Shown here: positions 7,530 through 46,708 of the stretch, one piece after another
How the letters are laid out: each line of letters starts with the position of its first letter
How positions within the stretch are numbered: position 1 is the stretch's first letter
Source of the DNA: Candidatus Zixiibacteriota bacterium
Lineage (GTDB): Bacteria > Zixibacteria > MSB-5A5 > DSPP01
Assembly (NCBI GenBank): GCA_022614805.1
Contig: JAKEHY010000024.1
Location: 5,867 to 69,866, forward strand
Length of the DNA: 64,000 nt
Reading direction: 5' to 3'
Program-made: the position numbers and the translations under genes
The notes under the pieces: generated by a model
The model's input: only the letters and a program-made list of their open reading frames with translations
Told to the model about the DNA's origin: nothing
The model's database searches: none

Positions 7530-9104
7530 ATGAGCAAATTCTTGAAGAAGCTTTCAGCCGCTTTATTCTTTGGCATTTTGGCAGCGCCTCCCTCCGCTTT
7601 TTGCCAGGTCGATACCGCTTGGGTGCGCTACTACAACGGGCCGGGCGACAAATCGGATGAAATGAGAGGGCTCGCTGTGGATGATAGCGGAAATGTAATT
7701 ATTACCGGTTACAGCGGGACTGGATCGCCGTTCGGAGATCTCGTCACGATTAAGTACGATCGGAACGGCAACCAACTTTGGCTTCAAAATTACAATAGTG
7801 CAGTAAACACCGGGGATTATCCTGCTCTTTTTGCCATTGATAAAAAAGGGAATGTGTATGTAACGGGCGGATCATCGGCAGGAAATGATTGCTTGACGAT
7901 CAAGTACGATTCCAACGGAAATCAGGTTTGGACAGCCCGCTATAACGGGCCCATAAATGGGGTGGACATTGGCTTAGGGGTCACGGTTGACGAAAGCGGG
8001 AATGTCTATGTTGCCGGGATCAGTCAGGGAGCCGTAAGAAATTGTTACTTCTACTCCGGCTTATACTATGATTTCGTGACACTAAAATACGACTCCAATG
8101 GAAACCAGCTTTGGGCTACCCGGTATGCTCCTCCGGGGGGGGATGATTATTGGAATCGCGCACATTTAATTGCAGTTGATTCATTTGGCAACATTTACGT
8201 CGGCGGATATAGTGAACATTGCCAAGGACCAACAGAATGGATAACCATCAAGTACGATTCGACCGGCGCGCAACTTTGGGTGCGATCCGATATCAAACAA
8301 CCATGGAGTACTGCTGCCGGTGCTCCCGTCGACCTAAAATTGGATGCCAGCGGATATGTTTACCTGACTGGAGGAAGTCAGCAGGATAGCACAGCATATC
8401 GCAACTATACAACCGTTAAATATGACTTCCAAGGTAATATACTGTGGGCCGCCCGTTTTAACGGAAGCGCCAACAGCGATGATTATGCCACCGCCATGGC
8501 ATTGGATTCACAGAACAATATTTACGTCACCGGCTTTAGTTATAGCGGAGCGGCAAACCGTGATGATATAGTTACCATCAAATACGATTCAGACGGAAAT
8601 GAGCTTTGGGCACGGAGTTACAACGGGCCGGGGAGTGGATTGGATAGAGGTTTTGATATATTCCTGGATACCGCGTGAAATATCTACGTGGCCGGAGTAA
8701 GCTTTGGAAACGACTCAACTTACAATTATGTGATCTTAAAATACGATTCGAACGGTAATATCCTTTGGGAAAAGCGGTATGGGGGGCCAGTTTTTTACTA
8801 CGCATTTCCAAAAATTTCAGTTGACCGGAACGGCAACGTATACCTTGCAGGTAGTGATATCAAAAACCAGTCGGATTTCGTGACCATCAAATATTCTCCC
8901 CTTCCCGCTTTAAAAGGCGATTTGAACTTGGACGGTGTTTTGACGATGGCGGATGTGGTTTTGATGCTCAATTTGGTTTTTAACGGCGAACTGCCCCCGG
9001 CGGCGCCAACGGCCGCGGATTTGAACTGCAACGGTTCGTTGTCGGCGGCTGACGTGGTAACCCTGCTTTATATGCTTTACGCCTCCGCTTCCCCGCCCTG
9101 CTAA
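7530..9104 (+). pseudogene. Secreted SBBP-repeat beta-propeller protein with dockerin-like C-terminus, interrupted by in-frame TGA
   Basis: The same frame runs from 7530 to 9104 but is broken by one TGA at 8676-8678. The N-terminus is a signal peptide (FLKKLSAALFFGILAAP, mature from about QVDTAW). Then come eight or so SBBP/beta-propeller repeats, each with a core like SGNVYVAG followed by VTIKYDSNGNQLW. The final 60 residues are a dockerin-like pair: DLNLDGVLTMADVVLMLNLV and DLNCNGSLSAADVVTLLYML. At the TGA the repeat reads LDTA-stop-NIYVAG, where sister repeats have Gly, so GGA to TGA is the simplest change. Other genes here end in TGA, so TGA is a normal stop. It may be a real nonsense mutation, population variation or an assembly error. 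An intrinsic terminator follows. Confidence 0.82.
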
Positions 9105-9109
9105 AAAAG

Positions 9110-9140
9110 AAAGGGGCCCGCTTGAGGACGGGCCCCTTTT
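9110..9140 (+). terminator. Intrinsic terminator after SBBP/dockerin gene
   Basis: An 11-bp GC-rich stem (AAAGGGGCCCG with CGGGCCCCTTT) around an 8-base loop, followed by T residues, begins just after the stop at 9104. It is a clear rho-independent terminator for the plus-strand gene. Confidence 0.85.
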
Positions 9141-9346: not shown

Positions 9347-10687
9347 TCAGGCAATCGTTTTAGCCTCCAAAAGCTCGTTCCAGCGGGTGGTGCAGCGCGG
9401 GGAACGGCGGCTCGATTTCATCCGCCAGCTTTGCAGCAGGCCGGCGGCGGCAAAACGCAGGGCGCCGGAGCCAAGCCGGGCGTTTACTTCGTCCAGTGCC
9501 TGCATCAGTTTTCCAGCGCTCCCGCGGTTTTTGCCGTCAAAAATGTCGGTTTGCACTTCTTCCGTAGGAACCAACCCGGAAAACACAACCCCCGCTTTTT
9601 TGAACCGGCCGTCCGCAAAAAAGATTTTTTCGGCTTCCCGCAGGGCATACCGTATCAGCTCCGGCGTGCTGTCGGTGGCCACCGGCAACTCGACGGTCGA
9701 GGAATGCGTTCGGGCCTGTTCGCTGTGGGGGCGGGTTATGCAAAAGACCGTCAGATGCTTTGCGGAAAGCCGGTCTTCGCGCAACGTTTCGGCCGCCTGG
9801 CTGGTGAATTCCGCCACCGCCTCCTTCAGTTCATTCAGTTTTTCGACGGCCCGGCCGAAGGAGCGGGAGCAGAGGACACTTTTGCGGGGGGAGCGAACCA
9901 TTTCCAGAGGCAGACAGGAGATGCCGCGCAGTTCAAGGAGAATGCGCTGCCCGACTATCCCCATCCGCTTCAAAATCCATTGGTCATCCGCTTGCCGAAG
10001 CTTGTGGGCGGTCTCTATCCCCCAGCTTTTCAGCCGCCTTTCGCCGCTGGGGCCGATGCCCCAGATTTCTCCCACCTCTATTTGGGCCAGCCGTTCCTCC
10101 GGGTCGGGAAGGGCCGACCAATCCATCACCCCTTTCAGTTCGGGTCGCTTTTTGGCCTGTTTATTGGCCAGCTTGGCCAAAGTTTTGGTGGGGGCGATGC
10201 CAATCGATATCGGAATGCCGGTCCACTTTTTGACCGTGGCGACGATTTGGCGGGCGTAGTCGGAAAGGCCGGCCCGCTCAAAGCCGGAAAGGTTCAAAAA
10301 GACTTCGTCAATCGAATAGATTTCCCGTTCCGGCGTGAATTGCGCCAGCGTATGGATGACCCGCCGGGACATATCGCCGTAAAGGGTAAAATTGGCGGAG
10401 TAGACCCGGACGTTCGCTTGTTCAATCAAATCCCGCACCTCAAAAAACGGGACGGCCATTTTGATGCCCAGCGCTTTGGCCTCGTTGGAGCGGGAGATGA
10501 TGCAGCCGTCGTTGTTGGAAAGGACAACGACCGGCACTCCCTCCAGGTTGGGATTAAAAACCCGCTCGCAGGAGACGTAGAAGTTGTTGCAGTCAACCAG
10601 GGCGAAGATGGTTTTGTTTGAAGCCACATCCGAAACCGGCTGCCCGCCACAGGCCGGTTTTTCCCGGTCACAAAGTATGGATGACAT
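9347..10687 (-). CDS. umuC: Y-family error-prone DNA polymerase (UmuC-like)
   Basis: 446 residues, UmuC/DinB superfamily, catalytic subunit of a translesion polymerase that copies damaged DNA with low fidelity. The palm motifs are visible: FALVDCNNFYVSCERVF (metal-binding Asp) and YSIDEVFLNLSG (catalytic Asp-Glu). A helix-hairpin-helix region (EVGEIWGIGPSGERRL) and a little-finger domain follow. About 25 residues precede the usual N-terminus, so the true start could be a GTG inside. The assigned ATG overlaps the umuD-like stop by 20 bases, and umuD in turn follows the radical SAM gene by one base, so the three genes form one operon read leftward from a promoter near 12.47 kb. Confidence 0.93.
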   Translation of the reverse strand: MSSILCDREKPACGGQPVSDVASNKTIFALVDCNNFYVSCERVFNPNLEGVPVVVLSNNDGCIISRSNEAKALGIKMAVPFFEVRDLIEQANVRVYSANFTLYGDMSRRVIHTLAQFTPEREIYSIDEVFLNLSGFERAGLSDYARQIVATVKKWTGIPISIGIAPTKTLAKLANKQAKKRPELKGVMDWSALPDPEERLAQIEVGEIWGIGPSGERRLKSWGIETAHKLRQADDQWILKRMGIVGQRILLELRGISCLPLEMVRSPRKSVLCSRSFGRAVEKLNELKEAVAEFTSQAAETLREDRLSAKHLTVFCITRPHSEQARTHSSTVELPVATDSTPELIRYALREAEKIFFADGRFKKAGVVFSGLVPTEEVQTDIFDGKNRGSAGKLMQALDEVNARLGSGALRFAAAGLLQSWRMKSSRRSPRCTTRWNELLEAKTIA

Positions 10688-11084
10688 AGGTTACCACGCC
10701 CCAGATTTCTATGCTCTCCGGTTTGCCTGACGGGCCGTTCTGCGAAAGAAGGGAGGGAGTCCTTTTTTTCAGCCGGTCAAAGTAGCCGACGACAAACTCC
10801 CCTTCCACCACGGCGATGACCACCCGGCCGGGGGCGGGCTCGAGCGAGCGGTCAACAATGAGCAGGTCGCCGTGGTGGATGCCGGCTTCCAACAGGGCAT
10901 CCCCTTTGGCCCACAGGAAAAAAGTGGCGGCCGGGTGTTTTACCAGATGGGCGTTCAGGTTCAAAACCTTTTCGGCAAACGGCTCGGCGGGGGAGGGAAA
11001 GCCGACCGCGGCCGGAGTCTGTTCGGAGGCGTCGGCGCCGGCCCGGACGGGAGGCTGGTTGAACATTGGAATGTAGGGCGCCAT
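10668..11084 (-). CDS. UmuD-like S24 protein lacking the Ser-Lys catalytic dyad
   Basis: 138 residues, aligned by eye along its length with E. coli UmuD: FPSPAEPF after the usual cleavage point, then LNLNAHLVKHPAATFF, HHGDLLIVD, VEGEFVV and a C-terminal WGVVTYVIHTL. UmuD is normally a LexA-like self-cleaving accessory subunit of polymerase V. Here the nucleophile Ser60 of GDSM is Ala (GDAL, codon GCC), the general base Lys97 is Gly (EFVVGYF, codon GGC), and the Cys-Gly cleavage site is Val-Gly. Each substitution was read from the bases. The protein should therefore not self-cleave, yet it keeps the fold and its place directly ahead of umuC. It probably serves as an uncleavable polymerase partner; this is inference. 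Confidence 0.88.
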   Translation of the reverse strand: MAPYIPMFNQPPVRAGADASEQTPAAVGFPSPAEPFAEKVLNLNAHLVKHPAATFFLWAKGDALLEAGIHHGDLLIVDRSLEPAPGRVVIAVVEGEFVVGYFDRLKKRTPSLLSQNGPSGKPESIEIWGVVTYVIHTL

Positions 11085-11085
11085 T

Positions 11086-12387
11086 TTAGCGAAAAGCCCC
11101 CGGAGAAACGGCCCCGGCGATGGGGTAACGGGAAATCAAAGAAAGCTGCTCTCCCGGTTTGCGCTGGCGAAAATAGGTCTCCCGCCTTTCTTCCCGCGTC
11201 TGGCCGTAAAAGATGCCGCCTATGGTTACGAATTCCTTGGTCTGACGTACTCGCACCCCCAGTTTGGCTAAATCTTCGGGCTTGAAAATCGTCCCCTCCC
11301 GGCGGGCGGTTAAAATCCGCCGGGCGGAGACCGGGCCGACGCCGGGGACGGTCAGAAGCTGTTCATACGAGGCGGTTTTGATTTCGATGGGAAAGAACTC
11401 CGGGTGTAAAATCGCCCGGTGGAGCTTGGGGTCCAACTCCAAAGACAAATTGCCGTCTTTTTCGAGCGGGATTTCGTTCACGGAAAGCTTGTAGATTCGC
11501 AACAAGTGCTCTGCCTGATAGAGCCGGTAGCCGCGCGTGAAAGGGGTGGGTGCCAGATTCTCAAACGGCGTGTCGGACATCGGCGCAAAAGTGGAAAAAT
11601 GGGCGTGGTGCAAAAAACCGTCCCCCTCCAATTGGGAGACGAGGGAGAGGATTTCTTTATCCCTCTCCCTCCCCGGGCCGACCATAAACTGGGTGGTCAC
11701 GCCGGCGGGGACCAGCTTTTTTCCTTCCAGTTTTCCGGCCTTCCAGAGTTCCCCTGCCTTTTGAATGGAGGGGAGAATGACTTTGGAAAGCGACTTTTCC
11801 GGCGCGATTTCGGAAAGGGCGGCGTCCGAAGGGGCTTCGCAGTTTAAGGAGATGCGCGAGGCCAGCCGGGCGGCCTGGACAATCTGCTCCGGCTCGGCCC
11901 CGGGGAGGATTTTTAAATGAATGTAGCCGCTGAAGCGGTAGCGCTTGCGCAAAATTTCCAACGTGGCCAAAAGCTTGTCCATCATCGAAACGGGTGAACC
12001 GGGGATGCCGGAGGTCAAAAACAGTCCGTCGGTGTATCCCTTCTTATGGGCGGCGTAAAAAACGGAGGCCAGTTCTTCCGGCTGAAAGATGGTCCGGCGC
12101 AACTTGCGGCCGCAACGGGTGGCGCAATAGCGGCATTTCAAGCTGCAGGCGTTGGTCTGCATCACCCGCATCAGGTTAAAAGTTCGCCCGTGCGCCCCCG
12201 CCAATTGCATAATTCCGGGCAGGGCGGCTTTCTTGGCCGTTTTTGGCTCGACCCCCGTGAGCCCATTTTGGACCTCTTGGGTTGCCTGGCGGATGGGGAT
12301 TGTCTGCCTCGGACGGCCCTCCGCATCCGAAGGGTTTATGGTATCGCCAAGGATATTAAGCTTATCAAGAAGACCTAATCTGCGCAT
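11086..12387 (-). CDS. Radical SAM protein with helix-hairpin-helix, putative DNA modification/repair
   Basis: 433 residues. The radical SAM cluster motif Cx3Cx2C is NACSLKCRYC, at about residue 85-94, followed by a TIM-barrel region (GLFLTSGIPGSP, RISLNCEAPSD). Near residue 345 is a helix-hairpin-helix DNA-binding motif (LTVPGVGPVSARRILTARR). This is the architecture of the family named putative DNA modification/repair radical SAM protein, which often has a uracil-DNA-glycosylase-type partner gene. No such partner is present here; instead umuD and umuC homologues follow at once. The stop is one base from the umuD-like start. A near-consensus promoter lies upstream on the minus strand (12453-12481). 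The reaction catalysed is unknown. Confidence 0.88.
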   Translation of the reverse strand: MRRLGLLDKLNILGDTINPSDAEGRPRQTIPIRQATQEVQNGLTGVEPKTAKKAALPGIMQLAGAHGRTFNLMRVMQTNACSLKCRYCATRCGRKLRRTIFQPEELASVFYAAHKKGYTDGLFLTSGIPGSPVSMMDKLLATLEILRKRYRFSGYIHLKILPGAEPEQIVQAARLASRISLNCEAPSDAALSEIAPEKSLSKVILPSIQKAGELWKAGKLEGKKLVPAGVTTQFMVGPGRERDKEILSLVSQLEGDGFLHHAHFSTFAPMSDTPFENLAPTPFTRGYRLYQAEHLLRIYKLSVNEIPLEKDGNLSLELDPKLHRAILHPEFFPIEIKTASYEQLLTVPGVGPVSARRILTARREGTIFKPEDLAKLGVRVRQTKEFVTIGGIFYGQTREERRETYFRQRKPGEQLSLISRYPIAGAVSPGAFR

Positions 12388-12452
12388 GTAACCTGTTGTT
12401 CTTCAATCTGTTTTATCATATTATTCACACTCATATAATACTATTTTATCAT

Positions 12453-12481
12453 ATTATACGTTTATGTAGTATAAAAGTCAA
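12453..12481 (-). promoter_or_regulatory. Sigma-70 promoter of the radical SAM-umuD-umuC operon
   Basis: Read on the minus strand: -35 TTGACT (12481-12476), a 17-bp spacer, and -10 TATAAT (12458-12453). Spacing is ideal and the -10 box is perfect. The motif ACGTATAATAT covers the -10 box (12461-12451) and recurs in opposite orientation at the divergent regulator promoter, making it a likely repressor operator. Confidence 0.72.
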
Positions 12482-12520
12482 GTATTTTTTTAGAATTTTT
12501 TATTAGCTATTGCTTTTTTA

Positions 12521-12534
12521 TATACGTATAATAT
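12521..12534 (+). promoter_or_regulatory. -10 box and candidate operator of the HTH-S24 gene
   Basis: A perfect TATAAT at 12527-12532 is embedded in the palindrome TATACGTATA (12521-12530). ACGTATAATAT (12524-12534) is identical to the motif over the divergent promoter's -10 box. No good -35 was found at normal spacing. An HTH protein bound here would block its own promoter; autoregulation is inferred. Confidence 0.55.
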
Positions 12535-12551
12535 ATTGTGGGAAGTCAAAT

Positions 12552-12578
12552 GGGATACCCCGACAGGTCGGGGCTACC
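12552..12578. repeat. Short palindrome, dispersed-repeat family
   Basis: CCCCGAC-AG-GTCGGGG is a perfect 7-bp stem followed by CTAC. It resembles other palindromes in this window that end in GCCCCTAC. It lies between the candidate operator and the HTH-S24 start, within the 5' untranslated region. Confidence 0.5.
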
Positions 12579-12610
12579 CTTGAAGATGGAACTAAAGAGA
12601 GGTGAGAAAA

Positions 12611-13288
12611 ATGGAGATAGGTGAAAGAATCAAAGCGCTACGGACGGCCAAGGGGCTGACGCTTTATCAGCTGGCCCGGCGGACCGGTCTGCAGTACACC
12701 GCCTTGAAAAAAATCGAAGAAGGGCAAACCGACCCGCGGGCGGATACGGTGGTGAAAATCGCCAGGGGAATTGGGGTGGAACCCTCCCGATTTTTCACGG
12801 ATGATTCGGCCGTGCGGCCGCCGGTGGTTTTGAACATCGTCCCGCCGGAGCGGGGGGCGCGCAGCTTCCAGCCGAAGTTTTTGGCTACCCTGCCCCTTTT
12901 TGCGGACGCCGCTTCGCTCGGAGGTGGCCGCGAAATCAACGAGCTGGATATCGAGTCATTTTTGGTGGTGCCCAAAGACCAGCTCCCCAACGAGGAGAAC
13001 TGCTATTGCATCAAGGTGGTCGGCGATTCGATGACGCCGGTTTTTTCCTCCGGCGATATTGTGGCCATTGATTTTTCCCAGAAGGACCCGGCCCTCTTGG
13101 AAGGGGCCTATGTCGCCTGCCGGCTGGGGGAGGCCGAAGTGACGGTCAAACAGCTAAAAAACAAGCCGAACCACTTCCACTTGAAAGCGGTCAACCCGGA
13201 TTGGGAAGACGCCAACGGCCCGCTTTTGGCGCCGAAAAAAGACGGCGTCATCCTCGGCAAAGTGGTGTGGCAGTGGAGGAAGTTTTAA
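12611..13288 (+). CDS. HTH-XRE/S24 self-cleaving repressor (LexA/CI-like)
   Basis: 225 residues from the ATG at 12611, chosen because GAGGTGA lies five bases upstream; an in-frame GTG at 12602 is the alternative. Residues 1-60 are a Cro/CI-type helix-turn-helix (TLYQLARRTGLQYTALKKIE). Residues from about 120 form an S24 peptidase domain with nucleophile Ser in VVGDSMTPVF and base Lys in EVTVKQLK, so the catalytic dyad is intact. Such proteins repress genes until RecA filaments trigger self-cleavage. It is divergent from the radical SAM-umuD-umuC operon, and both promoters share a motif, so it is the likely damage-responsive switch for that operon. Direct RecA response is inferred from family. 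No clear Ala-Gly cleavage site was seen in the linker. Confidence 0.88.
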   Translation: MEIGERIKALRTAKGLTLYQLARRTGLQYTALKKIEEGQTDPRADTVVKIARGIGVEPSRFFTDDSAVRPPVVLNIVPPERGARSFQPKFLATLPLFADAASLGGGREINELDIESFLVVPKDQLPNEENCYCIKVVGDSMTPVFSSGDIVAIDFSQKDPALLEGAYVACRLGEAEVTVKQLKNKPNHFHLKAVNPDWEDANGPLLAPKKDGVILGKVVWQWRKF

Positions 13289-46300: not shown

Positions 46301-46708
46301 ATCCTGAATTTCTACGCCTGTTGTCGGAGTAAAGTAGTACCCAACAGCATCAAGTCGAGCCGGGTCATTTTCTTCCGCCTCAAAAAACACGCTGTTGCCT
46401 ATCCGGGTAACTGGCCATCCGTTGACGGTAAGCGACTCGTTGTTGTAGTATTGAAAAGCGGAAGCGAGCGGGCTGGTAGTACTATTCAGCAAACCGACGA
46501 TAATGTTCACGCCGGAGCTTTCCATTTGCCCGTAGTACGTCAATGCTTGACTCGCCTTGTCCGTGTTTCTCAAATATAAATACGGCTCCAAAAAGGAAAT
46601 TTTGGGGAATTTCTTGGGCCCTGCGGCATAAAGCCAGGAAGGTAAGCCGAATATAAATATGGTTGCCATCAACAAGCGTGCGCGAATGCTTATCCGATTC
46701 GTTTTCAC
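43394..46708 (-). CDS. Large secreted protein: glycoside-hydrolase-like, beta-helix, C-terminal sorting domain
   Basis: 1104 residues with a signal peptide (ARLLMATIFIFGLPSWLYA). The region of about 30-600 contains a possible TIM-barrel-like segment (ALTHGAKGIGYFTYTTVYHR near 440), reminiscent of glycoside hydrolases but with no assignable catalytic pair. About 660-960 is a right-handed parallel beta-helix (CRVKNAYVGIDFQD, CFFEKNFMFGIQARNSN), usual in polysaccharide-binding or lyase proteins. The C-terminus is a FlgD-like type IX-style sorting domain (NQNYPNPFNPTTTISLSL, IYNILGQKVRILVDD, SGIYFYKLETSSF). A carbohydrate role is inferred. Middle gene of a three-gene operon. Confidence 0.75.
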   Translation of the reverse strand: MKTNRISIRARLLMATIFIFGLPSWLYAAGPKKFPKISFLEPYLYLRNTDKASQALTYYGQMESSGVNIIVGLLNSTTSPLASAFQYYNNESLTVNGWPVTRIGNSVFFEAEENDPARLDAVGYYFTPTTGVEIQDAGALGGDEQQKNARIGIAGSHSPGYLIAGPFGCVKSCARRPRFKTYYAKFRLKVPNTSLPDSTPVCSLSIRIGYDLQTVATTLLRLSNFPVRDQYQEVEISGFAGAVSASDYGFVQLQVFWQGNIDLYVDRIDFRDFDAKTLFGLSPTAVSNAFTAYYNSIDTARLLRWYPADELWASMFRTQKYFEGFSSVIGPRGKTTSEIGSNNSHIWSSYLSEIQAPQLDYFVYPFANGYDSSSSATHNVQHAIDTIFLPSLIKARQTVAQQSLPFYPMIQAVGQFDTLGNPIGFRDPQRPEIYVQVFLALTHGAKGIGYFTYTTVYHRSPLVRLIKEIPPDSMGEVTGAFPASSYPALHGLVDWNFHPTNPRFVPNYKWYAVRHADSLLDKIGPVLLDLTWDTAKIANSAIRYLDSLKSAQFSTPYVEAGFFKDSVNTDYFMLVNRRVLSTETQDVTAWLNKTGHSYVIDIFSGDTVLTGNVGTGAPLTTRLNPGEGKLFKIVPASTYIHGTVNHVTWQGKITVDGDVTIPSGKKLKILQPQAQVILLANRDTLHSGADINKCEFIVNGTMEGQGATTDPVKFASSSVTPGTQDWFGIRVFGSAKFTNCRVKNAYVGIDFQDTAYDTVRGCFFEKNFMFGIQARNSNVYIVQDTFQNNTNMGVCFDPASAVIESCYFKSNAIGIYTIGSFGRIANSRIIGTLYNSDVGLQAEGTVGGATQFLTFENNLDSGQFNLAAVSAHARLKVLNSRLKIYAPSGPLPEDPPDNVAVLSLGADSAIVRNSTVSYSGYSSTIPLVKVTAAPRLDLGRASPDPGNNSILRGWKSYSVGNYNTTTDSVYAKNNYWGGSASFTGPVAYVPYLASPPAKLAVGDEFEGPPALPNHFSLNQNYPNPFNPTTTISLSLPQAEKITLAIYNILGQKVRILVDDEKPAGVHTVIWDGTDSRGSPVSSGIYFYKLETSSFREVKRMLFLK

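Follow-up and report, generated by a model that had tools for sequence, protein, structure and literature searches.

Architecture and conservation of the cassette

Positions 9347–13288 of a 64,000-nucleotide stretch of contig JAKEHY010000024.1 (the window), from the assembly GCA_022614805.1 of a Candidatus Zixiibacteriota bacterium (G000), hold a compact cassette in which genes for a radical SAM protein with a helix-hairpin-helix (HhH) domain, a UmuD-like protein and the Y-family polymerase UmuC are set opposite the gene of a regulator with helix-turn-helix (HTH) and S24 peptidase domains. The operon reads leftward on the minus strand. It is led by the radical SAM-HhH gene (11086–12387; 433 residues; TIGR03916, PF04055 and PF00633), which is followed after a gap of 1 bp by the umuD-like gene (10668–11084; 138 residues; PRK10276), and this in turn overlaps umuC (9347–10687; IMS, IMS_C and a DUF4113 tail) by 20 bp. 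A strong intrinsic terminator with a 12-bp stem and a T-run follows on the same strand (9110–9139). The regulator gene diverges from the operon on the plus strand and ends at 13288. Its open reading frame is listed from 12602, but the likelier start is the ATG at 12611, because the GTG at 12602 falls within the ribosome-binding site GAGGTGA. The operon promoter, TTGACT-N17-TATAAT, lies on the minus strand (12481 to 12453) and matches the consensus at 11 of 12 positions. A first-pass annotation of the window had described this tight leftward operon, divergent from an HTH-S24 regulator, and its promoter. In the open reading frame list and the window sequence, all four genes lie in the order and at the places it had given, as do the promoter and both copies of a shared 11-mer (discussed below), and the family scans agree with its gene names.

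Conservation was assessed in a phylum sample of 132 genomes, all of one class, that includes the window genome G000 and a sister species of the same genus, G008. Homologues of the radical SAM protein or of the regulator (E ≤ 1e-10) occur only in these two. In G008 the same four genes are found, gene for gene, in the same order and orientations, and the operon ends in a similar terminator (L005 10179–10211). Protein identity between the species is 79–93% for UmuC, the radical SAM protein and the regulator, with 89% for the radical SAM protein, and 75–77% for UmuD. The arrangement is hence not unique to the contig, and its description as a self-contained, divergently arranged mutagenesis cassette holds. 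As far as the tools used here show, the cassette is confined to one genus.

The regulator and the loss of LexA

The regulator combines HTH_3 (9.3e-13) with Peptidase_S24 (1.5e-18) and is of phage CI type (phrog_4, CI-like, E = 8.9e-40). Alignment with LexA shows that its Ser-Lys dyad is intact, as first read from the window, with the serine in GDSM (GESM in G008) and the lysine in TVK. The protein is distinct from canonical LexA, scoring 42.2 bits against TIGR00498 (cut-off 110.95 bits) with a match that covers the S24 part only; its N-terminus is HTH_3, with no winged helix.

Of the 132 genomes, 103 encode a canonical LexA that scores above the curated cut-off, among them the nearest relative (G009, a single contig). 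None was found in G000 or G008, where the LexA model gives only weak cross-matches to the cassette proteins. Each of these two genomes encodes two proteins with Peptidase_S24, and both belong to the cassette (regulator and UmuD-like protein), so that the regulator is the sole HTH-S24 protein of either genome; the cassette UmuC is likewise the single Y-family polymerase of each, and recA is present. With completeness estimated at 93% and 99%, the genus's loss of LexA has good support, short of the proof that a closed genome would give. The S24 regulator is the natural controller of the cassette, and the case for such a unit is stronger than the first-pass annotation could have known, given that neither genome has canonical LexA or a second Y-family polymerase.

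The regulator's plasmid and phage matches, at 25–31% identity, are CI-type repressors of the ordinary sort. Neither the regulator nor the radical SAM protein gave a match in viral scans, and occurrence of the cassette in viruses was rejected on that basis. Directly 3′ of the regulator in G008, on the same strand (L005 3917–6162), lie two genes that are absent from the window: one for a three-Cys-motif partner protein, TcmP (TIGR04474, 171.6 bits; also PADLOC candidate PDC-M30A), and one for a radical SAM protein resembling spore-photoproduct lyase (TIGR04070, 55 bits, below the cut-off). These may constitute a second regulator-linked module for repair or defence.

Promoters and a conserved palindrome pair

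The spacer between the divergent genes is AT-rich (30% G+C, against 55% for the window). Within it, the 11-mer ACGTATAATAT occurs twice, in opposite orientations, at 12451–12461 (minus strand) and 12524–12534 (plus strand), and nowhere else in the 64 kb, where whole-window shuffles give an expectation of 0. The first-pass annotation had seen both copies correctly and had proposed that the regulator binds them as an operator shared by the two promoters. This role is very improbable. An 11-base inverted repeat arises in 5 of 300 local shuffles of the AT-rich spacer, which makes the repeat only mildly unusual, and the two copies are the extended −10 boxes of the operon and regulator promoters, respectively. 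Conservation between relatives had been put forward as one check on the proposal. The 11-mer is missing from both promoters of G008, the one relative with the cassette, although the HTH region of the regulator is almost identical in the two species; at the place of copy 2, the regulator promoter of G008 instead reads TTGACT-N17-TATAAT. ACGTATAATAT was therefore rejected as an operator, on an outcome that the annotation had itself named as speaking against it.

Alignment of the two spacers brings out a different pair of elements, two 7-bp palindromes (RTASTAY) that stand in register in G000 and G008. Element 1 (12438–12444), on the gene-proximal side of the operon −10 box, is ATACTAT in both species, and element 2 (12466–12472), between the −35 and −10 boxes, is GTAGTAT in G000 and GTAGTAC in G008. 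The centres lie 28 bp apart, one on each side of the −10 box, and the bases between the elements have diverged. An exact RTASTAY-N21-RTASTAY pattern occurs once per 2.5-Mb genome in both species, at the cassette promoter, 50 bp before the start of the radical SAM gene; a reversed control pattern gave 0 matches in G000 and G008. The pair is a candidate operator of the regulator on the operon side. It spans the operon promoter only and does not overlap the −10 box of the regulator promoter, and therefore lends no support to autoregulation.

With one mismatch allowed, one further match appears in G000 and none in G008. This site (L045 9583–9617) has the cassette orientation and the 28-bp period, and 57 bp downstream of it begins a 99-residue fragment of the RecA superfamily (RecA/KaiC/ImuA-like; L045 9226–9525, contig C21) that retains a Walker A motif (TIGR02012, E = 3e-4; ImuA model, E = 0.09). 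No copy of this gene was found in G008, and the fragment is probably a decayed imuA-type gene. Two other candidate targets were rejected. At recA the scan shows no pattern, and the 3′ end of the preceding gene is conserved; two RTASTAY elements at window positions 46444–46486, considered as a second regulated operon, lie inside a 1104-residue coding sequence and differ in spacing.

The leaders of the two transcripts have features of their own. That of the radical SAM gene (12388–12440) is conserved (GATTG-AGAACAACAG) and in both species contains a short open frame that overlaps the radical SAM ATG, ending in ...QIEEQQVTCAD and ...QIAEQQII, respectively; no clear ribosome-binding site precedes the ATG. 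The frame may possibly encode a leader peptide with translational coupling. The 5′ leader of the regulator carries a perfect hairpin (CCCCGAC-AG-GTCGGGG, 12557–12576), a small insertion that is present in a single copy in the window and absent from G008.

The UmuD-like protein lacks the protease dyad

The UmuD-like protein narrowly passes the PRK10276 cut-off (111.0 against 110 bits). The first-pass annotation had assigned this protein and UmuC to their families correctly and had missed the loss of the protease dyad from the UmuD-like protein. In an alignment to solved UmuD, Ser60 is replaced by Ala (GDSM to GDAL) and Lys97 by Gly (VVG), and both dyad residues are gone in G008 as well (GDAL, TVQ). 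The cleavage position is V-G in place of C-G in both species. On these alignments, the protein cannot be expected to process itself. It keeps the N-terminal arm of about 27 residues before GFPSP. Structure predictions of the UmuD-like protein and the regulator were too poor to use (mean predicted local distance difference test scores of 38 and 43, respectively, with only the HTH confident).

Both Ser and Lys are kept in 16 of the 24 UmuD partners whose genes were found next to umuC in the phylum. The other 8 lack the Lys, and 5 of these lack the Ser too; they come from G000, G008, G049, G055, G073, G074, G052 and G053, and in the UmuC tree they are spread over five branches. UmuD predicted to lack self-cleavage is recurrent in the phylum, with the cassette protein at the extreme. 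At the other damaged loci (L022, L062, L063, L054, L056 and L061, in G049, G052, G053, G055, G073 and G074, respectively) the adjacent umuC is intact. Nothing pertinent on UmuD that is protease-dead by nature emerged from a literature search.

The cassette UmuC has the IMS, IMS_C and DUF4113 domains and the catalytic carboxylates (LVDCNNF and YSIDEVF), and falls short of the PRK03609 cut-off (386.5 against 431 bits).

The radical SAM-HhH protein

The radical SAM protein shares with the TIGR03916 family (rSAM_link_UDG, COG4277) a Cx3Cx2C cluster motif (CSLKCRYC, residues 81–88), which aligns in 11 relatives, and a C-terminal HhH (PF00633, residues 336–359); PF04055 is also matched. It differs from the family in scoring below the cut-off (284.6 against 343.5 bits), in its branch and in having no UDG neighbour. 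In a small tree, the two cassette proteins group with homologues from Gemmatirosa and another bacterium (support 0.999), whereas proteins linked to UDG or TIGR03915 stand on a separate branch. No UDG lies beside the gene in the window operon, in G008 or beside the nearest relatives (40–47% identity). The proposal in the first-pass annotation that UmuDC stands in place of a UDG partner fares poorly against this tree: because the branch of the cassette protein has no UDG neighbours, replacement of a UDG by UmuDC is not the simplest history.

A profile scan of 84,980 species genomes, which used two short peptide patterns only and is no full census, found no case among five relatives (40–47%) in which the radical SAM gene adjoins umuDC or the gene of a comparable regulator. 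The plasmid matches examined with annotated neighbours all lie next to a UDG or TIGR03915 partner, and the literature examined gave no instance of this radical SAM gene within one operon with umuDC. By sequence, no solved structure extends over the radical SAM domain, and only the HhH parts match. In an Ardenticatenia metagenome-assembled genome (L011 4802–7126), the gene of a relative with 44% identity overlaps the next gene, which by eye is DNA methyltransferase-like (...LLGDCVE...); this neighbour is a possible clue to a DNA-base substrate.

Within window positions 7530–9104, an SBBP beta-propeller open reading frame (7530–8678) adjoins an SBBP-dockerin open reading frame (8688–9104), and the two look like one gene split by a frameshift or stop.

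Discussion

We consider it probable, though by no means secure, that the unit is an HdiR-like mutagenesis cassette that substitutes for LexA and responds to damage independently of it. The CI-type S24 regulator would repress the radical SAM-umuD-umuC operon by binding the two RTASTAY palindromes around the −10 box, as their conservation suggests, and because it is the only HTH-S24 protein left in a genus without LexA it would be the sole candidate S24 damage sensor. Damage, presumably via RecA filaments, would inactivate the regulator and release the operon. With the UmuD-like subunit's own protease lost, the usual second brake on DNA polymerase V (Pol V), UmuD self-cleavage, would be gone and control would rest on transcription, with the UmuD-like protein acting as a constitutive UmuD′-like partner of the intact UmuC. 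The radical SAM-HhH protein would simultaneously add a DNA-directed radical reaction, probably the repair of an unusual lesion or base, as its family and neighbours suggest.

The layout is known in outline. HdiR, UmuDAb and the S24 repressors of Bacteroidetes control error-prone polymerases where LexA is missing (PMC8565304). The HdiR-controlled umuC cassettes of Streptococcus uberis and Lactococcus (PMC8565304) resemble the present one in having a phage-derived HTH-S24 regulator in place of LexA and an error-prone polymerase in a genome without LexA. They differ in that their description includes neither a radical SAM gene nor a UmuD-like subunit, and the likeness is drawn from that description; moreover HdiR is cut RecA-dependently (PMC8565304), whereas the scissile bond of the cassette regulator is Leu-Gly. 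UmuDAb of Acinetobacter (PMC3978071, PMC8565304) is likewise an S24 protein with a DNA-binding part that regulates umuDC without LexA, but it is a UmuD variant that keeps self-cleavage, whereas here a CI-type regulator is joined by a separate protease-dead UmuD-like protein. The non-canonical LexA of Bacteroidetes (PMC8565304) shares the CI-type HTH with S24, and there COG4277 (radical SAM)–COG1573 (UDG) operons and umuDC are both SOS targets (PMC8565304), so that joint regulation of this radical SAM family and translesion synthesis has a precedent. In Bacteroidetes, however, the radical SAM-UDG pair has an operon of its own and Ala-Gly is conserved at the scissile position, whereas the radical SAM gene here heads the umuDC operon with no UDG beside it. 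E. coli Pol V (UmuD′2C) has the umuD-umuC pair, the intact UmuC active site and DUF4113 in common with the cassette, which departs from it in the loss of the Ser-Lys dyad, the V-G cleavage position and the absence of LexA. The combination of a radical SAM gene, umuDC, a CI-type regulator and a protease-dead UmuD looks new.

Several observations weigh against a damage-responsive mutagenesis cassette. In E. coli, full-length uncleavable UmuD is inactive for mutagenesis, and the dead UmuD might equally signify a checkpoint protein. Just two genomes carry the unit. The operator pattern was derived from two related cassette promoters, so its exact matches there, and its uniqueness, are not independent evidence; the L045 site is independent, yet it is a single instance beside a probable gene remnant. 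In the genome pattern scan recA, which lies directly behind another gene, has no RTASTAY site. Finally, the scissile position of the regulator is Leu-Gly in both species (AASLGGG, and AASLGSG in G008) where CI-type relatives have Ala-Gly or Cys-Gly, a bond reported as common to all SOS-type S24 regulators (PMC8565304). RecA-dependent self-cleavage, which the first-pass annotation had taken as settled knowledge, cannot be assumed for a protein whose expected bond is of this kind. By position and context the regulator would be SOS-repressor-like, but because it lacks the Ala-Gly or Cys-Gly feature we do not class it as a proven SOS repressor.

The Leu-Gly bond and the lack of a conserved site at recA are what would be expected if the regulator were a domesticated repressor of CI type, no longer able to cleave itself, that answers to another signal (antirepressor, ligand or proteolysis) and merely holds the cassette low. 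We regard this as worth serious attention but unlikely, since the Ser-Lys dyad is kept in both species (GDSM/GESM, TVK), when the neighbouring UmuD-like protein shows the fate of a dyad once selection ends, and since the regulator adjoins umuDC in genomes that have no LexA. Quite improbable, in our estimate, is a variant in which the dyad of the regulator, with an altered P1 preference, cuts both itself at Leu-Gly and, in trans, the protease-dead UmuD at Val-Gly, so that one S24 protein would fill both damage-sensing proteolytic roles and, as the single sensor, gate transcription and polymerase activation alike in a combined radical SAM repair and mutagenesis cassette.

About as doubtful as a regulator deaf to damage is a non-mutagenic Pol V, in which the dyad-less UmuD would remain as an uncleavable UmuD2-UmuC and act as a replication checkpoint or lesion-tolerance brake. 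The N-terminal arm, which self-cleavage could no longer remove, has been kept, and uncleaved UmuD2C functions in checkpoint control in E. coli. Nevertheless, UmuC retains an intact active site and DUF4113 tail, and dyad loss on five branches of the phylum looks more like a relaxed need for cleavage than a switch of function. It is less likely still that the radical SAM gene merely hitch-hikes, an unrelated neighbour co-transcribed with umuDC by accident and without a common function. The arrangement is indeed limited to two genomes, and relatives of the protein (40–47%) occur without umuDC. Yet the 1-bp gap to the umuD-like gene is preserved in both species, COG4277 operons are SOS targets elsewhere (PMC8565304), and the 89% identity of the radical SAM protein exceeds the about 77–79% of UmuD and UmuC, which argues that it is under strong constraint.

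Loss of LexA with replacement by a phage-type S24 protein is known from Streptococcaceae, Moraxellaceae and Bacteroidetes. If the LexA-substituting cassette proposed here is real, it would be a further independent replacement, in an uncultured phylum and in a very small form, with its candidate operator on one DNA fragment. UmuD autoproteolysis, usually deemed the essential brake on Pol V, has disappeared from up to five branches of this phylum, which directly raises the question of what restrains Pol V in its absence. For the radical SAM-HhH family, which has no known reaction, translation alongside a translesion polymerase would be a useful clue to the substrate.

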